In this document: one piece after another, positions 45,655 through 55,675 of the stretch | Numbering within the stretch: position 1 is the stretch's first letter | How the letters are laid out: every line of letters begins with the position of its first letter | DNA from: Fodinibius roseus | GTDB taxonomy: Bacteria; Bacteroidota; Rhodothermia; Balneolales; Balneolaceae | DNA length: 64,000 nt | Direction: 5' to 3' | Assembly: GCF_900129315.1 (NCBI RefSeq) | Contig: NZ_FQUS01000022.1 | Location: 1 to 64,000, forward strand | Translations under genes and position numbers: made by a program | The notes under the pieces: generated by a model | Seen by the model: the letters and a program-made list of their open reading frames with translations, nothing else | Told to the model about the DNA's origin: nothing | Database searches by the model: none

Positions 45655-46764
45655 CTACAGCAGCGTACCCGGCTGTAGATTGGGATTGAGGTGCTTCAGG
45701 ACCGCACTGCCCATCTCCGTGGTATCCACCACATATTCCCTGGAGGGATCGGTCGAGATATCGCCCGTTCGGAACCCGTCTTTCAGGGTGGTCTCAATGG
45801 CTTCTTCAATCTCCCGGGCGGCCTCGGGCATATCCAGCGAATACCGGCACATAAGCGCCACGGATGCGATGGTTGCCAGGGGATTGGCTTTGTTTTCCCC
45901 GGCTATGTCGGGCGCCGAACCGTGCACGGGCTCGTACATGGCATGCTTTTCACCAAGGCTGGCAGAGGGAAGCATGCCGATGGAACCGGTGATCATGGAG
46001 GCTTCGTCACTCAAAATATCGCCGAACATGTTGCCGGTCACGATCACGTCAAACTGGCTGGGATACCGCACCAGCTGCATGGCGCAGTTGTCGACCAGCA
46101 TGTGCTCGAGGGTTACCTCCGGCCATTGCTTGGCCGACTCCGTCACGGTGCGCCGCCACAGCCGCGAGGAATCGAGAACATTCGCCTTATCCACAGAAGT
46201 GACTTTGCGATTGCGGACGGCAGCGGTCTCAAAAGCGGTATGAACGATGCGCTTGACTTCTTCAGTGGTATAGATCAGGGTGTCTACGCCGCGCTCGCCG
46301 GTGTCGGTTTTTTCGATCAGACGGGGCCGTCCGAAATAGATGCCGCCGGTCAGTTCACGGACAATCATGATGTCCACATCCCGGATGATCTCCTCTTTCA
46401 GGGGGGAGGCGTGAATCAGCGATTCGTAGGTTTTAATGGGACGAAGGTTGGCGTATAGGCCCAGTTCCTTGCGCAGCCCCAGCAGCGCTGCTTCGGGACG
46501 CTTGTCCTTGGGCTGGTCATCCCACTGGGATCCGCCTACGGCGCCCAGCAGGACCGCATCGGCCTTTTTACAGGCCTCCAGTGTTTCCCGGGTAAGGGGA
46601 CGTCCGAAGCGATCAATGCTGGCTCCGCCCACCTCATGGTTTTCCGTTTTTAATGTATAATCGTGACGCTCACAGACGGCCTGCAGAATTTTGACGGCTA
46701 CTGAGGTCACTTCCGGTCCGATACCGTCGCCGGATAGTACAGCAATTTCTTTGGTTATTGACAT
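45655..46764 (-). CDS. leuB: 3-isopropylmalate dehydrogenase
   Basis: 369 aa. Oxidative decarboxylation of 3-isopropylmalate in leucine synthesis. KEIAVLSGDGIGPEVTSVAV N-terminus, LLGAVGGSQWDD, LRKELGLYANLRPIK, VRELTGGIYFGRPR, substrate/Mg site DNCAMQLVRYPSQFDVIVTGNMFGDILSDEASMITGSIGMLPSASLG. Last gene of the operon, overlapping leuD by 10 bp. Confidence 0.97.
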   Translation of the reverse strand: MSITKEIAVLSGDGIGPEVTSVAVKILQAVCERHDYTLKTENHEVGGASIDRFGRPLTRETLEACKKADAVLLGAVGGSQWDDQPKDKRPEAALLGLRKELGLYANLRPIKTYESLIHASPLKEEIIRDVDIMIVRELTGGIYFGRPRLIEKTDTGERGVDTLIYTTEEVKRIVHTAFETAAVRNRKVTSVDKANVLDSSRLWRRTVTESAKQWPEVTLEHMLVDNCAMQLVRYPSQFDVIVTGNMFGDILSDEASMITGSIGMLPSASLGEKHAMYEPVHGSAPDIAGENKANPLATIASVALMCRYSLDMPEAAREIEEAIETTLKDGFRTGDISTDPSREYVVDTTEMGSAVLKHLNPNLQPGTLL

Positions 46765-47330
46765 GGAATCATCCCCTCTTTTCGTGCAAATTCAAAAATC
46801 CCGCCGGCATTTACAATATCCGCCACGCTGCCGAGGGGACGAATATCATAGGTTTCGTTTTGTGTTACGTTTTTGACCACTCGCTCCTGGGGATGTATTT
46901 CCAGCTTGTCGCCGGTGTGAACTTCTTTGCTCAGGTCTTCCAGGCTCTCATAGGGAATGACAAAGCCGCCGTCTACCGAGTTGCGGTAAAAAATCCGTGC
47001 GAAGGTGGGAGCGATGATCGCCTGCACGCCGGCGATATCCAGGGAGGCCGGGGCATGCTCGCGAGACGACCCACACCCGAAATTAGGTCCCCCCACAATA
47101 ATATTAAACTCACTTTCAAACCGGTCTTCCTCAACCAGCGGGATGTTCCCCTGGGGGAGCCCCGATTCGGCATCCGGCACGCCGGACAAGGCATAACGGC
47201 CATAAAATTTTCGCTCTTCCGGGTCGTCTAAACTGTACACGAGGTGTTCGGCAGGAATAATCTGGTCGGTGTCGATATTTTTACCGAGCACAAACGCTTT
47301 TCCTGAAATAATTTGCTGCTGATTAGCCAT
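46755..47330 (-). CDS. leuD: 3-isopropylmalate dehydratase small subunit
   Basis: 191 aa. Swivelling domain of isopropylmalate isomerase. GKNIDTDQIIPAEHL and GGPNFGCGSSREHAPASL are the signature substrate-binding segments; FARIFYRNSVDGGFVI follows. Encoded directly after leuC and overlapping leuB. Forms the heterodimer with LeuC, which carries the iron-sulfur cluster. Confidence 0.96.
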   Translation of the reverse strand: MANQQQIISGKAFVLGKNIDTDQIIPAEHLVYSLDDPEERKFYGRYALSGVPDAESGLPQGNIPLVEEDRFESEFNIIVGGPNFGCGSSREHAPASLDIAGVQAIIAPTFARIFYRNSVDGGFVIPYESLEDLSKEVHTGDKLEIHPQERVVKNVTQNETYDIRPLGSVADIVNAGGIFEFARKEGMIPCQ

Positions 47331-47368
47331 AATAAATTATGAAGAAATAATATTGATTGTGATTCGAT

Positions 47369-48682
47369 CTATATAACGGTTTGCTGTATAAAGACACGCG
47401 GGTCGGTAATCTTCCCGGTTACGGCCGATGCCGCCACGGTATACGGGGAAGCCAGGTAAACCTGTGATTCTTTAGAGCCCATGCGTCCCGGATAGTTACG
47501 GTTGGTCGTAGAGATACAAACTTCCTGGTTGTTGAGCCGGCCGAACGTATCGGAGGGTCCGCCCAGGCAGGCTGCACAGGACGCCTGTCCGATTTTACAG
47601 CCCGCTTCTCTGAAGATATCGATCAGCGGCTTCCCGTTCAGGGTATGTGTTTCAAGTCCCTCTGCAATTTCAGTCGTGGCGGGTACGATATAGGTATCGA
47701 GCTTAAGGTCGTTGCCGGCAATAATCTCAGCCGCCGCTTCGAAGTCAGACAATTTCCCACCTGTGCAGGAGCCGATATAGGCGCGATCGAGCTTAGTGCC
47801 TTCCAGCTCCAGGGCTGTGGCTTTATTATCCGGGCTGTGGGGCTTTGCAACCATCGGTACCATGTCTTCGAGATTGTACCGATATTTGCTGTGGTAGGTG
47901 GCATCCGGGTCGCTGTAGACGGGTTCAAAATCCTTGTCGGTGCGCTGTCGGACATACGCTTCCGTTTTGGCATCCGGTTCGACGACTCCGTTTTTGCCGC
48001 CCGCTTCAATAACCATATTGGTGAGGGTCATCCGGTCTTCCATCGACATGACGCTGATCCCGGGACCGCCAAACTCCATGGTGCGGTAGGTAGCGCCGTC
48101 GACGCCGATATCACCGATAATTTTCAGAATAATATCTTTTGCCATGATATAGGGGGGCATGGATGTGCCTTCAAACTCAAAACGCATGGTTTCGGGCACT
48201 TTGACCCAAAGCTGCCCGGTTCCCATGATGAAAGCGGCATCCGTATTACCGATACCGGTGGCAAATTGTCCGAATGCTCCGGCCGTACAGGTGTGCGAAT
48301 CCGTACCAAAAAGCACTTCGCCCGGCCGCGTAAATCCTTCTTCCGGGAGAGCGATGTGGCAAACACCCTTGTAATCCTCAGATCCGACATCATAAAAATA
48401 GGGGAGGTCCTGGTCCGCGGCAAAAGCCCGGAGGATATCCACATTGCGGTTGGCGTATTTATCTTTGGTAAAGATGTAGTGGTCCGGAATGATGACAAGT
48501 TTCTCTTTATCCCATACGCGGGCGTCTTCGCCAAACTGATTTTTAAAAATGCCGATTGACGGGGGACCGCAAACATCATGGGTCATCAGTACATCTACGT
48601 CCACCCAGACACTTTCGCCGGGCTCCACGGAGGAAGCACCACTGTGGTTTGCTAATATTTTTTCTGTGAGGGTCATTCCCAT
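47369..48682 (-). CDS. leuC: 3-isopropylmalate dehydratase large subunit
   Basis: 437 aa, the shorter LeuC/homoaconitase-like form. Aconitase fold; the [4Fe-4S] ligands come from GSCTGGKLSDFEAA and QASCAACLGGPSDTFG; VWVDVDVLMTHDVCGPPSIGIF and GTDSHTCTAGAFGQFATGIGNTDAAFIMGTG are active-site segments. Isomerises 2- to 3-isopropylmalate together with LeuD; may also process citramalate from CimA to beta-methylmalate, as in known citramalate pathways. Start MGM; the ATG two codons later is also possible. Confidence 0.95.
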   Translation of the reverse strand: MGMTLTEKILANHSGASSVEPGESVWVDVDVLMTHDVCGPPSIGIFKNQFGEDARVWDKEKLVIIPDHYIFTKDKYANRNVDILRAFAADQDLPYFYDVGSEDYKGVCHIALPEEGFTRPGEVLFGTDSHTCTAGAFGQFATGIGNTDAAFIMGTGQLWVKVPETMRFEFEGTSMPPYIMAKDIILKIIGDIGVDGATYRTMEFGGPGISVMSMEDRMTLTNMVIEAGGKNGVVEPDAKTEAYVRQRTDKDFEPVYSDPDATYHSKYRYNLEDMVPMVAKPHSPDNKATALELEGTKLDRAYIGSCTGGKLSDFEAAAEIIAGNDLKLDTYIVPATTEIAEGLETHTLNGKPLIDIFREAGCKIGQASCAACLGGPSDTFGRLNNQEVCISTTNRNYPGRMGSKESQVYLASPYTVAASAVTGKITDPRVFIQQTVI

Positions 48683-48724
48683 AATTCTGATCTTTTAAGA
48701 GTATTTGAAATTAATAAGTGAAAG

Positions 48725-49915
48725 TTAGCTGGTCACCGTCGTATCTCCCGAAACCTTTTGTTGCGGCAGCGTTTCACTGACCAGCGCAAGCAATTCCTGT
48801 TCGTTAACGATTTTTTTCTCATCGGCAAGATTGGTGAACTTCACATAGACCTGGTTCAACTCATCCTTGCCGAGAGAATACCCCAGCTTCTGGAGCTTTT
48901 TGTTGAGTGCAAAGCGCCCCGAGTGTTTACCGAGCACAATTTTGTTGCCGGTCAGGCCCACAGATTCCGGGGTCATAATTTCATAGGTCATCGGGTTGTT
49001 CAAGACGCCGTGCTGGTGAATGCCGGCTTCATGTGCGAAGGCATTCTCACCGACGATGGCCTTGTTCAGCTGAACCTCGTTGCCGGTGATCTCCGTGAGG
49101 AGCCTGCTGGTTGGCATCAGCTGATCCGTTGCGATATTCGTATATTTGCCAATGTTGTTTTTCCGGGTTGTGATGGCCATAACAATTTCTTCGAGCGAAG
49201 CGTTGCCTGCCCGTTCCCCGATGCCGTTGATGGTACATTCAATCTGTTGTGCGCCATTCCGTACCGCCATCAGCGAATTGGCAACGGCCACTCCCAGGTC
49301 GTTGTGGCAGTGTACACTCAGGGTGGCCTGTTCTATGTTGGGCACGTTTTCACGGATGCTTCGGATCAGCTCTCCGAATTCCCAGGGCAGGGCATAGCCC
49401 ACCGTATCGGGCACGTTGATAACCTTGGCCCCCGCATCAATTACGGCCGTAAAAACCTCGAACAGGAATTCAGGATCACTGCGGGAGGCATCCTCAGCCG
49501 AAAATTCCACTTCGTCACAGAATTTACCGGCATATTCCACGGCCGAAACCGCAGATTCCAGGACCTGCTCCCTGTTTTTCTTAAGCTTATACTCCATATG
49601 AATATCCGAAGTAGCAATAAACGTATGGATCCGCGGTTTTGCAGCGGGTTCAACGGCTTCAGCGGCCCGGTCGATATCCTTGGTGGTCGTCCGGCAAAGC
49701 GCAGCTACAGTACTTTCTTTGATCTGCTGGCTTATTTTTCGAACCGTTCTGAAGTCTCCTTCCGATGCAATGGGAAAACCGGCTTCGATAACATCCGCCT
49801 TTAGACGTTCAAGCTGGAGGGCAAGCCGCAGTTTTTCATCCTGGTTCATGCTAAATCCCGGAGACTGTTCTCCATCTCGAAGTGTCGTATCGAAAATTTT
49901 GATTTGGTTTTCCAT
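48725..49915 (-). CDS. leuA: 2-isopropylmalate synthase
   Basis: 396 aa from the ATG at 49915 ([23 protein letters not shown]). HMGL-like TIM barrel condensing acetyl-CoA and 2-oxoisovalerate. LRDGEQSPG and [20 protein letters not shown] (metal-binding HxH) are the two family signatures; [16 protein letters not shown] and GIHQHGV follow. At this length there is no complete C-terminal LeuA regulatory domain, so leucine feedback through that domain is doubtful. Located between cimA and leuC. Confidence 0.93.
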
Positions 49916-50070
49916 AGTGGTGGAATTAAAGATATTGAAAGTTAAATTCTCACAATAGTGCAAGGTTGCAGGCGATGTAAAGCTGATAATCGTTTTGCAG
50001 TTATAGCATAGCAGGGTAAAATGTCTCGTGCTGTCCGTAGGGTATTCATATTCTTATTACCAATCATGAA

Positions 50071-51663
50071 TTAAATGACTTCTTTTTGTTGTATGCTCTT
50101 CTGTTTTTGCGCAAGGTAATAGCCAAAGCTGTCCGTAAGAGCCTGCCAGCTGGCATCAATGATGTTGTGAGAAACGCCCACCGTGCCCCAGCTTTTCCCG
50201 TGTTCGGCGGAGTCGATAAGCACGCGTACATCCGCGCCGGTACCGTCTTTTTCATTCAGCACGCGCACTTTGTAGTCGTTCAGATGCATATTGCTTATTT
50301 CCGGATAAAATTTGTGCAGGGCCTTACGGAGTGCTTTATCAAGGGCGTGGACCGGTCCGTTGCCCTCGGCCGCGCAGTGCTCCGCCTGGTCATTGACTTT
50401 GATCCGCAGGGTCGCTTCTGTGCGCGAGCTGCCGGAAACGTTTTTTTCCACGATAATGCGAAATCCCTCCAATTTGAAGAACTCTTCCCATACGCCCGTC
50501 ATACGTTTGACCAGCAGCTCGAATGAAGCTTCAGCCGCTTCAAACTGATAGCCTTTATTTTCCAGCTCTTTAAGCTTTTGCACGATTTCAGATACGTTAT
50601 CACCGTACTTGTCCAGCTTGATCCCCAGCTGTTCGGCTTTATAGCTGATGTTGCTTCGGCCGGACAGGTCCGATACCAGTACCCGCCGGCTATTGCCTAC
50701 CCGGCTGGGAGGGACGTGCTCGTAGGTATCTTCATTCTTCATGACCGCACTGACGTGGATACCGCCTTTGTGAGCAAAGGCACTGCGCCCCACATACGGC
50801 TGACGAATATCAGGATTCAGATTGGCCAGCTCGCTGACAAAACGCGAAAGGGCTGTCAATTCTTCCAGCTTTTCATCAGGGATACATTCATAATCTTGTT
50901 TGAGCTGAAGGTTCGGAATCAGCGAGCAGAGATTGGTATTGCCACACCGTTCGCCATAGCCATTAACGGTACCCTGCACATGGGTGCACCCGCTTCGCAC
51001 GGCGGCCATGGCATTGGCCACCCCCAACTCACAGTCGTTGTGGGCGTGAATACCCACGGGGATGTCAACCCGTTTGTGTACTTCAGCAACAATTTCGGAT
51101 ATCTCGTGCGGGAGGGTGCCCCCGTTGGTATCGCATAAAACAACCGTGTCGGCACCGGCCTCTTCCGCCGCCTTGAGCGTAGAGAGCGCATACTCGGGAT
51201 CCGACTTGTAGCCGTCGAAGAAATGTTCGGCATCGTAGATGACTTCCTTGCCGTGTTGTTTGAGGAAGCCAACGGAATCACGAATGATTTCAAGATTCTG
51301 TCCCGCCGTAATTTGCAGTGCTTTTTCGACATGCAGCAACCAGCTCTTGCCAAAAATGCAGACGACGGAGGTGCCTGCTTCTACCAGCAACCGGAGGTTT
51401 CGATCCTCCTCCGGGGACGCCCCCGCGCGGCAGGTACTGCCAAAAGCTACAATCCTGGCATGTTCAAACGAGGCATCGGCCGCCAGTTCAAAAAATTCCA
51501 TATCACGGGGATTGGAGCCCGGCCACCCGCCTTCGATATAATTAATGCCGAAGGCATCCAGCTGTCGGGCGATCCGCAGCTTGTCTTCTGCAGAAAAAGC
51601 CACTTTTTCGCCCTGGGTTCCGTCCCGGAGCGTGGTATCAAATATGTCAATTGATCTGTTCAT
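50071..51663 (-). CDS. cimA: (R)-citramalate synthase
   Basis: 530 aa. Condenses pyruvate and acetyl-CoA to citramalate, giving a threonine-independent route to 2-oxobutyrate and isoleucine. [29 protein letters not shown] (the TQGE variant separates CimA from LeuA), [51 protein letters not shown] and [10 protein letters not shown]. The C-terminal ~130 residues form the LeuA-type allosteric domain, probably the isoleucine site. Its ATG overlaps the last base of ilvC. Confidence 0.94.
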
Positions 51664-52691
51664 TATTCAGCTGCTGTTTCTACAACTTCTTCATCGTCTT
51701 CATCGATCCAGTCCATCATAGAGCGGAGTTCCCTGCCTACGGTTTCAATTTTATGTTTGCTCAGATCACTGCGCAGCGATTTAAGCCTGGGAAGCCCGTC
51801 TTTGTTCTCCTGGATCCATTCATCGGCAAAGGTGTGGTCCTGCACCTCTTTGAGAATTGCTTTCATCCGCTCTTTTGTGGAGGAATCGACCACCCTGGTC
51901 CCCCGGGTAAGTCCCCCGTACTCGGCTGTATCGCTGACCGAATAGTACATCCGTTCAATACCGCCCTCATACATCAGATCCACAATCAGTTTCAGCTCGT
52001 GGAGGCACTCGAAGTAGGCGATTTCGGGCTGGTAACCGGCTTCTACAAGGACTTCAAATCCCTGTTTGACCAGTTCCGAGGCGCCGCCGCAGAGCACCGC
52101 CTGTTCCCCGAAAAGGTCGGTCTCGGTTTCTTCTTCAAAGGTCGTTTCAAGTACCCCGGCCCGGGTTCCTCCGAGGGCCTTGGTATAGGCCAGGGCGGTT
52201 TCCCGGGCTGTTCCTGTGTAATCCTGTTCGATAGCAATCAGGCAGGGTACGCCGGATCCTTTTTTATACACGCGGCGTACCAGGTGCCCAGGGCTTTTGG
52301 GGGCAACCATAAACACGTCCACATCCGGATCGGGCTCTATCTGTCCGAAGTGAATGTTAAAGCCATGGGCAAAGGCCAGTACGTTGCCTTCTGTTAAATT
52401 CGGTTGAATTTCCTTTTTATAGACATCAGCCTGGTGTTGATCGGGAATTAAAATCATGACGATATCACCGGCTTCCGCCGCTTCCGCCGTTGGCAATACG
52501 TTGAGGCCGGCTTTCCGGGCATCTTCCCGCGAGGAGCTGTCTTCCCGAAGTCCCACGACGACATCGATGCCGCTTTCTTTGAGATTCAGAGCATGAGCGT
52601 GTCCCTGACTTCCATACCCAATGATGGCAACCGTTTTATCGCTTAGATAGTTAAGATCGGCATCGTCGTTGTAATACGTTTTAGCTTTCAT
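51663..52691 (-). CDS. ilvC: Ketol-acid reductoisomerase (NADP+)
   Basis: 342 aa, class I length. [31 protein letters not shown] is the NADPH-binding Rossmann motif; [47 protein letters not shown] and [17 protein letters not shown] carry the metal-binding Asp/Glu. Converts acetolactate and acetohydroxybutyrate to dihydroxy acids, the substrates of IlvD. Overlaps cimA by one base; preceded by a dispersed repeat between ilvN and ilvC. Confidence 0.97.
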
Positions 52692-52748
52692 GTCTACTTC
52701 TTCGTTTAATGATTTATGAGTTATTTCTTATTTATGAGATTTTTATAC

Positions 52749-52889
52749 GAGAGCTCTACAAAACCATTCTTTCGGCCACCCTTTGCATTTTCGCGAATTC
52801 AACATCCTGACATATATTTAATATGTTCTGGTTTTGAATTCGCTCAGGCTTTTGGACTGATCAAAGGTCCTGGTTTTCAAACTCCTCTA
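52749..52889 (-). repeat. Dispersed intergenic repeat, copy 5 (inverted, inside ilv operon)
   Basis: About 141 bp between ilvN and ilvC. Same order of blocks as copy 4: GAGAGCTCTACAAAACCATTC, TTCAACATCCTGACATATA, TGAATTCGCTCAGGCTTT, TGATCAAAGG and CCTGGTTTTCAAA. Its right edge includes the ilvN stop codon (52887-52889). Transcribed within the operon, so its inverted terminal sequences could form an mRNA hairpin affecting ilvN/ilvC stoichiometry (inference). Confidence 0.82.
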
Positions 52890-53414
52890 TACATTTCCGT
52901 CAAATTCTCTTTTGAGCGCAACACTCCCGGTCCGCGCCACTTCGTCCACTCCGAAAGGATAGAGCATGCCGATAAAGGCATTGACTTTATCACGGTTGCC
53001 GGTAACTTCAATCGTCAGTTTCTCCGGGCTGATATCAATGACTTTTGCCCGGAAAACCTGGGCTATCTGCATGATTTCCGACCGGCTGGATCGGGTGGCG
53101 GTCACTTTGATCAGGGCCAGTTCCCGATCCACGAAGCTGTCGTAGGTCAGGTCGTTGACTTTTACCACGTCAATAATCTTATTGAGCTGTTTGGTAATCT
53201 GCTCAATAATCTGTACATCGCCATGCGTGGTGATGGTGATACGAGCCAGGTCTGATTTTTTGCCCGAGCCAAAGCTGATGCTGTCAATTTCAAAGCCTTT
53301 GCCGCTGAAAATGCCGATTATGCGGGAAAGAGCATTTAAATTATAGCTTACCAGTACCGAAAGCGTGTGTTTTTCAACTGTTTTTTCCTTCGTCACATTG
53401 TTTGTCTGTTTCAT
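52887..53414 (-). CDS. ilvN: Acetolactate synthase small (regulatory) subunit
   Basis: 175 aa. HTLSVLVSYNLNALSRIIGIFSGKGFEIDSISFG is the N-terminal ACT domain, containing the valine-binding Asn region; the C-terminal IlvH-type domain follows (VKVNDLTYDSFVDRELALIKV...). It activates and confers feedback inhibition on IlvB. Starts three bases after ilvB ends. Terminates at the edge of the dispersed repeat. Confidence 0.95.
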   Translation of the reverse strand: MKQTNNVTKEKTVEKHTLSVLVSYNLNALSRIIGIFSGKGFEIDSISFGSGKKSDLARITITTHGDVQIIEQITKQLNKIIDVVKVNDLTYDSFVDRELALIKVTATRSSRSEIMQIAQVFRAKVIDISPEKLTIEVTGNRDKVNAFIGMLYPFGVDEVARTGSVALKREFDGNV

Positions 53415-53417
53415 TAT

Positions 53418-55163
53418 TTACTCGTCGCCTTCAACCATTTCATTTAATGCGGCTCCTGAAGGAACCATCGGATAACAATTTTCGTGTTCTTCCACCTTGA
53501 AGTCCATGACCACGGGACCGTCATTGATCGCCATCGCCTGTTCCAGGACTTCATCCATTTCTTTGGGATTGGTGGCCCGGAGTCCGACGGCCCCGTAGCT
53601 TTCGGCCAGTTTCACAAAATCGGGATTCCCTTTCTTCAGGATCGAGTGGCTGTAGCGCTTGTTAAAAAACAGCTCCTGCCACTGCCGTACCATCCCCAGG
53701 CATTCGTTATTCATGATCGCAATTTTCAGGGGAACCTCATACTCGACAGCCGTCGCCAGTTCATAGGCCGTCATTTGGAAACCGCCATCGCCCGTGATAC
53801 AGACCACCGTTCGGTCGGGACAGCCGAAAGCCGCTCCCATGGCCGCCGGGAAGCCGTAGCCCATGGTCCCCAGTCCCCCGGAAGAGAGGAACGAGCGCGG
53901 ATAATTGAAGGTATAATGCTGAGCCGCCCACATCTGGTGCTGGCCGACGTCCGTCACAACAATAGCCTCGCCATTGGTATAGTGGGAGATTCGTTCGATC
54001 ATCAGCTGTGGTTTAATCGTCGTTTCCGAATCAGGTACCTTCAGCGGGTGTTCACGCTTCCAGGTGTTGATGGTATCCCACCACTTCTCAGTATCTGGCT
54101 TCGTCGCCTGACGATCAATAGAGGGCAGCACTTTTTTGACATCGCCAACAATGGGAATATCCACCGGCACATTCTTGCCGATGTTGGAAGGGTCAATATC
54201 GATGTGGATTTTCTTCGAATGGGGAGAAAATCCATCCAGCCGTCCCGTAACCCGGTCATCGAACCGGGCCCCGACGGCCAGTAATACATCACATTCGGTC
54301 ATCGCCATATTCGCATAATAGGTGCCATGCATGCCCAGCATGCCTACCGACTGCGGCTTGCTTTCCGGAAAGCCACCCAGCCCCATTAATGTAGTGGTAA
54401 CGGGGATGTTCAACCGCTCGGCCATTGCCGTAAGTTCTTCCCAGGCTTCTCCCAGTACCGCACCTCCTCCGGCATAGATCAGCGGTTTTTTGGCTTCGCT
54501 GAGCAATTGTGCCGCTTTGGAAATTTGTGTTGCGTGACCCTCTTCCGTCGGCTTATAGCTGGGGATAGAAATCTTTTTCAGTCCGCTGTAGCGGCACTCG
54601 GTATTCAGCATATCCTTGGGAAGATCCACCAGCACCGGACCCGGACGCCCGCTTGTCGCTACATGAAAGGCTTCCCGTACCACCTGCTCAAGATTATTGA
54701 CGTCCTTGACCAGGTAGTTGTGCTTGGTAATGGGACGGGTAATACCGACAATATCCGCCTCCTGAAACGCATCATTGCCGATCAGCTCCGTCGGCACCTG
54801 TCCCGTAAACACAACCAGCGGAATGGAATCCATCGCGGCGGTGGCGATACCGGTGACCGTATTGGTGCCGCCCGGGCCGGATGTTACCAGTACCACACCG
54901 GCCTTGCCGGTAGCGCGGGCATAGCCGTCCGCAGCGTGGGCACCGGCCTGCTCATGTCGTATCAGCACATGATTGATATCGTGCTCGTCAAATAGCGCGT
55001 CATAGATAGGGAGTACTGCCCCGCCCGGGTAGCCGAAAATAGTATCTACCTTGATATCTTTAAGGGTTCGGATCAGCAGTTCCGCGCCGTTTAAAACAGC
55101 GGGTTCGGGTGTCTGGGATTTGTTGGTTGCACTGTCGATTGTTTGTGTTTTTGCTTGTGCCAT
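53418..55163 (-). CDS. ilvB: Acetolactate synthase large subunit
   Basis: 581 aa from the ATG at 55163, which has an AGG Shine-Dalgarno four bases upstream; the frame stays open a further nine codons. ThDP enzyme: VDTIFGYPGGAVLPIYDAL, IRHEQAGAHAADGYARATGKAGVVLVTSGPGGTN, LIGNDAFQEADIVGITRPITKHNYLV, and the ThDP motif GDGGFQMTAYELATAVEYEVPLKIAIMNN. Makes acetolactate or acetohydroxybutyrate. Head of the ilvB-N-C-cimA-leuA-C-D-B operon, and probably controlled through the leader structures at 55165-55296. Confidence 0.97.
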   Translation of the reverse strand: MAQAKTQTIDSATNKSQTPEPAVLNGAELLIRTLKDIKVDTIFGYPGGAVLPIYDALFDEHDINHVLIRHEQAGAHAADGYARATGKAGVVLVTSGPGGTNTVTGIATAAMDSIPLVVFTGQVPTELIGNDAFQEADIVGITRPITKHNYLVKDVNNLEQVVREAFHVATSGRPGPVLVDLPKDMLNTECRYSGLKKISIPSYKPTEEGHATQISKAAQLLSEAKKPLIYAGGGAVLGEAWEELTAMAERLNIPVTTTLMGLGGFPESKPQSVGMLGMHGTYYANMAMTECDVLLAVGARFDDRVTGRLDGFSPHSKKIHIDIDPSNIGKNVPVDIPIVGDVKKVLPSIDRQATKPDTEKWWDTINTWKREHPLKVPDSETTIKPQLMIERISHYTNGEAIVVTDVGQHQMWAAQHYTFNYPRSFLSSGGLGTMGYGFPAAMGAAFGCPDRTVVCITGDGGFQMTAYELATAVEYEVPLKIAIMNNECLGMVRQWQELFFNKRYSHSILKKGNPDFVKLAESYGAVGLRATNPKEMDEVLEQAMAINDGPVVMDFKVEEHENCYPMVPSGAALNEMVEGDE

Positions 55164-55164
55164 G

Positions 55165-55296
55165 TGACCTGGTAAATATACTTTTCCCACCAGAGGTCAG
55201 AAGGAAGTAAAATTGTTAGTTGAACTTTTATTCTAACCCCTGGCTGCTATTATTAGCTGATAATTAGAATTAGGTTAATAATGCCAGAAGTTAGAA
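55165..55296 (-). promoter_or_regulatory. Four-segment alternative RNA structure controlling the ilvB ribosome-binding site
   Basis: On the minus strand, in order. Segment 1 TTCTAACTTCTGGC (55296-55283, inside the leader ORF); segment 2 GCCAGGGGTTAGAA (55244-55231); segment 3 CTGACCTCTGG (55200-55190); segment 4 ACCAGGTCA (55173-55165), containing the ilvB Shine-Dalgarno AGG. Pairing 1:2 is 14 bp (two G-U). Pairing 2:3 is 11 bp (two G-U). Pairing 3:4 is TGACCT/AGGTCA plus GGT/ACC across a 2-nt bulge. Each helix excludes its neighbour, as in translational attenuators. Confidence 0.82.
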
Positions 55297-55486
55297 CAGG
55301 TAGAATAAGTAGAATACTAATTACACCTATTTCAGGAGAGATAGAAACAGCTGCCGATATGAATAAAGCAATAACGAATATCAACGAGATATAGTCCTGC
55401 GAGGACAATCCGAATAAAGGTTCGGAAGGTGCTGCAGTTGCGGATGTATGTGATACTTGTGTATTCAACGGTTGCTGTCTTTTCAA
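55253..55486 (-). CDS. Ile/Leu/Val-rich leader peptide of the ilv-leu operon
   Basis: Up to 77 residues, TAA at 55255-55253. The start is unsure: no ATG lies in the frame; TTG at 55486, 55468 or 55408 is possible. Of the last 22 residues (ISILLILPVLTSG, then IINLILIIS) 15 are Ile, Leu or Val, and five of the Leu codons are CTA. The stop is 89 bases upstream of ilvB, and codons 64-68 overlap RNA segment 1 of the attenuator. The alternative is a small membrane protein with two hydrophobic segments. Confidence 0.7.
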   Translation of the reverse strand: MKRQQPLNTQVSHTSATAAPSEPLFGLSSQDYISLIFVIALFISAAVSISPEIGVISILLILPVLTSGIINLILIIS

Positions 55487-55498
55487 TTAAGAATAGGC

Positions 55499-55527
55499 AT
55501 GATAGAAAAAGGAGCATTCGTTGTCAA
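55499..55527 (-). promoter_or_regulatory. Promoter of the ilv-leu operon
   Basis: On the minus strand TTGACA (55527-55522), 17-bp spacer, TATCAT (55504-55499); predicted start near 55492. This puts the leader ORF start within a few bases of the transcript 5' end. Confidence 0.65.
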
Positions 55528-55651: not shown

Positions 55652-55675
55652 TAAAAAAAGGGATACTAATCCCTT
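55652..55675 (-). terminator. Terminator-like hairpin in the ilvB-ilvD intergenic region
   Basis: AAGGGAT (55658-55664) / ATCCCTT (55669-55675) with a 4-nt loop. On the minus strand it is followed by seven T. No gene would be terminated here, since ilvD runs the other way, so it may shield the divergent promoters or end an antisense transcript. Confidence 0.5.

Follow-up and report, generated by a model that had tools for sequence, protein, structure and literature searches.

We found that the branched-chain amino acid operon of Fodinibius roseus is preceded by a conserved leader that is probably a ribosome-mediated attenuator of the ilvBNC-cimA-leuACDB operon, acting on the initiation of ilvB translation. 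All of its parts lie on the minus strand of the window, the 64,000-nucleotide stretch of contig NZ_FQUS01000022.1 that was analysed. The promoter that an earlier note on this DNA had reported was recovered as TTGACA-17-TATCAT (55499..55527; 11/12 consensus match), and it is followed by a leader ORF of probably 71 amino acids (55253..55468, with its TAA stop at 55255-55253), by ilvB, which encodes the large subunit of acetolactate synthase (53418..55163, ATG at 55163; TIGR00118), and by the remainder of the operon in the order ilvN, ilvC, citramalate synthase, leuA, leuC, leuD, and leuB (45655..53414). In the window, ilvD is divergent from this operon. Among 34 family relatives, 14 have a promoter of the TTGAC type (score of at least 9/12), and every one of the eight from the same genus is among them. 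We also observed a hairpin resembling an intrinsic terminator, AAGGGATTAGTATCCCTTTTTTTATC (55658-55675, minus strand), which lies between ilvD and the leader promoter and points towards the leader.

As in known ilv/leu attenuators, the leader ORF contains a control-codon run matching the products of its own operon. This control-codon region consists of the last 22 leader codons (55256..55321), which encode ISILLILPVLTSGIINLILIIS; a recount agreed with the earlier figures of 15 Ile, Leu, or Val residues and five CTA codons, compared with an Ile/Leu/Val share of 21% in window genes. A conserved TTG at 55468 is the probable leader start, since the start could be assigned by an N-terminal motif in 29 of the 34 family leaders and all 29 begin with TTG. 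The bias extends to relatives: among the 54 of 60 ilvB orthologues with enough upstream DNA to be read, every one had Ile, Leu, or Val at 12-15 of the last 20 leader codons, while the other two frames averaged 1.2 and 5.9. In leader tails, Leu is encoded by CTA in 80% of cases, versus 3.1% in window genes, a 26-fold bias, and Ile by ATT in 85%, versus 43%; CTA occupies codons -4 and -6 in 97% of family leaders and codon -13 in 85%. CUA has been singled out by theory as the Leu codon most sensitive to starvation in E. coli, and the leu leader of Salmonella became less sensitive when CUA was changed to CUG (PMC1183508).

The end of the leader and the DNA beyond it contain four segments with competing pairings. 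Segment 1 (55283..55296) lies within the leader codons and pairs with segment 2 (55231..55244), whose near-invariant sequence, CCAGAGGTTAGA, begins 11 nt beyond the T of the leader's TAA stop codon and can pair with either segment 1 or segment 3 (55190..55202; near-invariant GACCTCTGG). Segment 4, UUACCAGGUCAC (55164..55175), runs to the ilvB ATG. We scored helices 1:2, 2:3, and 3:4. In the window, helix 1:2 joins 55296-55283 to 55244-55231 in 14 pairs including two GU, the length first claimed for it, while helix 2:3, previously given as 11 bp, was recovered at a different length, joining 55243-55231 to 55202-55190 in 13 pairs with GU counted. Helix 3:4 has its 5' arm at 55187..55193, which pairs with 55175-55169 in seven pairs ending at most 6 nt from the ATG at 55163, and has an alternative outer part, TGACC/GGTCA. 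Compared with 200 dinucleotide shuffles of the segment-2 region, with a pass defined as better than 95% of the shuffles, 2:3 passed in all 54 genomes (window, p=0.01) and 1:2 in 50 of them (window, p<0.005); the four genomes failing for 1:2 belong to more distant families. In all 54, the two helices use overlapping segment-2 bases and are thus mutually exclusive, as in attenuators.

In the family alignment of 34 relatives, 93% of cells were paired for 1:2 and likewise for 2:3, rising to 98% for the 2:3 core helix, versus 30-60% in slid controls for 2:3, and 89% were paired for the inner four pairs of 3:4. Two of these inner pairs were changed on both sides, in eight cells, and none of 500 shuffles scored as high. 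Covariation within the family was modest and clearest for inner 3:4, with few double changes in 2:3, because the helix cores are nearly invariant; a pooled order-wide alignment of the 2:3 core added little covariation for the same reason. The covariation check suggested with the original observation was thus positive for inner 3:4 and limited for 1:2 and 2:3, and of the structural evidence, covariation carries less weight.

Segments 1, 2, and 3 are almost invariant in the family, on both sides of the leader stop codon, which bears on whether the leader ORF could instead encode a functional small membrane protein with the RNA pairings as by-products. The leaders are about 60-83 amino acids long and share hydrophobic stretches and a similar N-terminal motif, as such a protein might, but we reject this reading as barely credible because the middle of the family leaders varies freely in sequence and length while the non-coding segments past the stop codon do not. 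The strength of the CTA bias, the conservation of segments 2 and 3 beyond the stop codon, and the constant association of the element with ilvB also argue against it.

For the attenuator, we propose that when charged Leu, Ile, and Val tRNAs are scarce, the leader ribosome would stall on the CTA- and ATT-rich end of the leader and cover segment 1, upon which 2:3 would form and leave the ilvB start region open. When charged tRNAs are plentiful, the ribosome would reach the leader stop, where it would overlie the 5' end of segment 2, and then leave; 1:2 would form, and segment 3 would pair with segment 4 and hide the ilvB start. In 37 of 40 cases, folding predicted a more accessible ilvB start when 2:3 could form than when it could not (p=1e-7). 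When a stalled ribosome was modelled on the family leaders, stalls anywhere from codon -17 to codon -1 left the start open (0.50-0.56); it was closed (0.42) with the ribosome at the leader stop and stood at about 0.43 with the ribosome upstream of codon -18. Stalls at codons -17 to -6 gave a mean predicted accessibility of 0.53, against 0.42 (p about 1e-4), a moderate shift that is noisy in single genomes, the window included. In these models, the ilvB start opens only for stalls on the control codons, and a hairpin masking the start region of the downstream gene, as in erm/cat-type systems, is predicted. Duplex energies favour 2:3 over 1:2 (medians of -26.6 versus -20.8), so the default state of the ribosome-free leader is uncertain.

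Segment 4 had been described as holding the ilvB Shine-Dalgarno sequence; of this description, the masking of the start region stood and the Shine-Dalgarno sequence did not. Segment 4 of the window contains AGGT, which is not conserved among relatives, and a 4-mer Shine-Dalgarno-like motif is found in segment 4 in 14 of 34 relatives. Such motifs were also not enriched in window genes (4/38 versus 2.6 in shuffles, with start sites that are mechanical guesses), and a search with 16S tail patterns for the anti-Shine-Dalgarno sequence gave no match. We prefer start-region masking to Shine-Dalgarno sequestration on account of this lack of conservation and enrichment. A point against the model is that, in some of the more distant families, 3:4 is short and is separated from ilvB by another small ORF.

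Between the leader ORF and ilvB, the window has no hairpin resembling a terminator, and no intrinsic terminator (a stem followed by at least six T in eight) was detected at this position in any of the 54 orthologues, in line with the earlier claim that a T-run terminator is lacking; the U-tract terminator that serves as 3:4 in ilv/leu transcription attenuators was thus found in 0/54. As a positive control, the same scan found a terminator in 9 of 9 relatives of other genera that have a different, ilvD-ilvB operon (L123-L131), which indicates that Balneolaceae are able to use an intrinsic terminator for the same pathway. Upstream of ilvD, these operons carry an apparent classical U-tract transcription attenuator, with leaders such as MLSTVISLVIIRVIGITYRPGKALC. 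Their leaders belong to the same bacterial family and pathway as the element described here and are short and rich in Val and Ile, but they differ from it in having a U-tract terminator, GGAAGGCTTTTTTTT, an unrelated sequence, and another operon order. Most known ilv/leu leaders act by transcription attenuation (PMC10272879), as this one would if it were a classical attenuator with an atypical intrinsic terminator missed by the scan, but the contrast between 0/54 here and 9/9 in the ilvD-ilvB leaders makes such an oversight very improbable.

Without an intrinsic terminator, some other off-switch is needed, and the same leader and ribosome sensing could instead end in Rho-dependent termination, in which 3:4 would leave ilvB untranslated and Rho would stop transcription in the leader or early in ilvB. 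Attenuation by Rho has been proposed for leader peptides lacking a terminator in Actinobacteria (PMC1262725), and polarity could go along with translational control. We regard Rho as an unlikely main output, albeit the most plausible of the alternatives considered, since 3:4 extends as far as the region of the start codon and shows covariation in its inner pairs, features that control of translation explains directly and that Rho does not need. The translational attenuator of the earlier note is thus supported by the conserved leader tail and helices, by the missing terminators, and by predicted start accessibility that follows the position of the ribosome; from these we infer that the ribosome stalls on the leader, that the switch operates in vivo, and that its output is translation and not Rho-dependent termination.

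Of 129 genomes from the order Balneolales, 60 yielded an ilvB orthologue. Alignment of the regions upstream of ilvB, a check that had been proposed for this leader, recovered the leader tail in 54/54, and the Ile/Leu/Val-rich leader end, the exclusive helices, and the start-masking arrangement are kept across the order. Judged by sequence, the leader and its helices are not a chance arrangement. A covariance model built from the family matched strongly only at ilvB, once per genome, and had no strong match in family genomes lacking an ilvB orthologue, such that the element tracks ilvB; the more distant Balneolales families, which have diverged too far for this model, were read one by one. Exact matches to a degenerate leader pattern were all from Balneolaceae, including Rhodohalobacter halophilus, R. 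sulfatireducens, and Fodinibius halophilus, apart from one record labelled only 'Bacteroidetes bacterium'. Four genomes of the same genus (G003, G005, G007, and G009) have neither strong ilvB and ilvD orthologues nor the leader, and may have lost branched-chain amino acid synthesis. In genomes with the ilvB leader, the regions upstream of ilvD contained no comparable leader, and the few Ile/Leu/Val-rich stretches there were taken as chance. A plasmid search returned only similarity to ilv genes, and an Rfam covariance-model search of the element (T-box, riboswitch, Leu leader) gave no match at E<=1, with three chance-level eukaryotic matches only.

In more distant families (L044, L046, L048, L049, L051, L054, L055, L084, and L087; also L134 and L137), an extra short ORF is present between segment 3/4 and ilvB. 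This ORF is often cysteine-rich, as in MNHPYTKQHARKPQACDCFIYGCCI and MKQYKTCERCVRPCALATAGCH; the first such ORFs contain about 27 Cys in 402 residues, with ORFs chosen without a control. Their composition suggests a possible second, cysteine-responsive control. Outside the order, a family of the same class (f20; L134, L135, and L140) has an Ile/Leu/Val-ending leader, LASVVLLLGLIIITV, upstream of ilvB, and this leader region contains complementary stretches, GGCCGATCCTTC and GAAGGATTGGCC, that resemble 2:3 by eye. The f20 leader is possibly a relative or a parallel of the Balneolales element. The four other members of the class outside the order that were read had no such leader or complementarity.

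Ribosome-mediated control of amino acid biosynthesis is a textbook case of transcription termination, while the element described here is terminator-free, conserved, and predicted to act on the start of translation. We lean towards regarding it as an order-wide class of amino-acid-sensing attenuator in which the output is translation initiation, the start region is masked rather than a Shine-Dalgarno sequence, the hosts apparently hardly use Shine-Dalgarno sequences, and part of the order has a second, often cysteine-rich leader ORF. No description of the element was found in Rfam or in open-licence papers; earlier reports in subscription journals are possible. Within one family, other genera carry a classical version with a terminator for this pathway, and setting it beside the present element offers a natural comparison of two output modes, which also bears on how a start can be masked without Shine-Dalgarno pairing.

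In translational attenuators of the ermC/cat type, a stalled leader ribosome frees the downstream start region from a masking hairpin. The same stall-driven unmasking is predicted here, but the cue in those systems is an antibiotic, whereas the predicted cue here is a lack of charged Leu, Ile, or Val tRNA and the target is a biosynthetic operon; ermB is an example of the erm/cat type (PMC8274638). Enterobacterial ilvL and leuL and Corynebacterium ilvB-II share with our element an Ile/Leu/Val-rich leader peptide, competing helices, and a branched-chain amino acid operon (PMC1183508, PMC10272879), and the enterobacterial leu leader also shares its rare CUA Leu codons (PMC1183508). Unlike them, our element has no intrinsic terminator and no Rfam match, and its last hairpin covers the ilvB start; its leader of about 60-80 codons is also far longer than the 15-17 amino acids of ilvB-II. 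Motifs of uORFs associated with ilvB have already been described (PMC10272879). The LEU element upstream of actinobacterial leuA likewise combines a leader peptide with Leu codons and a biosynthetic gene whose start is predicted to be masked, and its codon mutations did not behave like classical attenuation (PMC1262725). These LEU elements are the nearest predicted case of start masking, and their architecture is different: in them it is the run of Leu codons that pairs with the Shine-Dalgarno sequence, within a pseudoknot (PMC1262725), whereas here segment 3 would mask the start and segments 1 and 2 would act as the switch.
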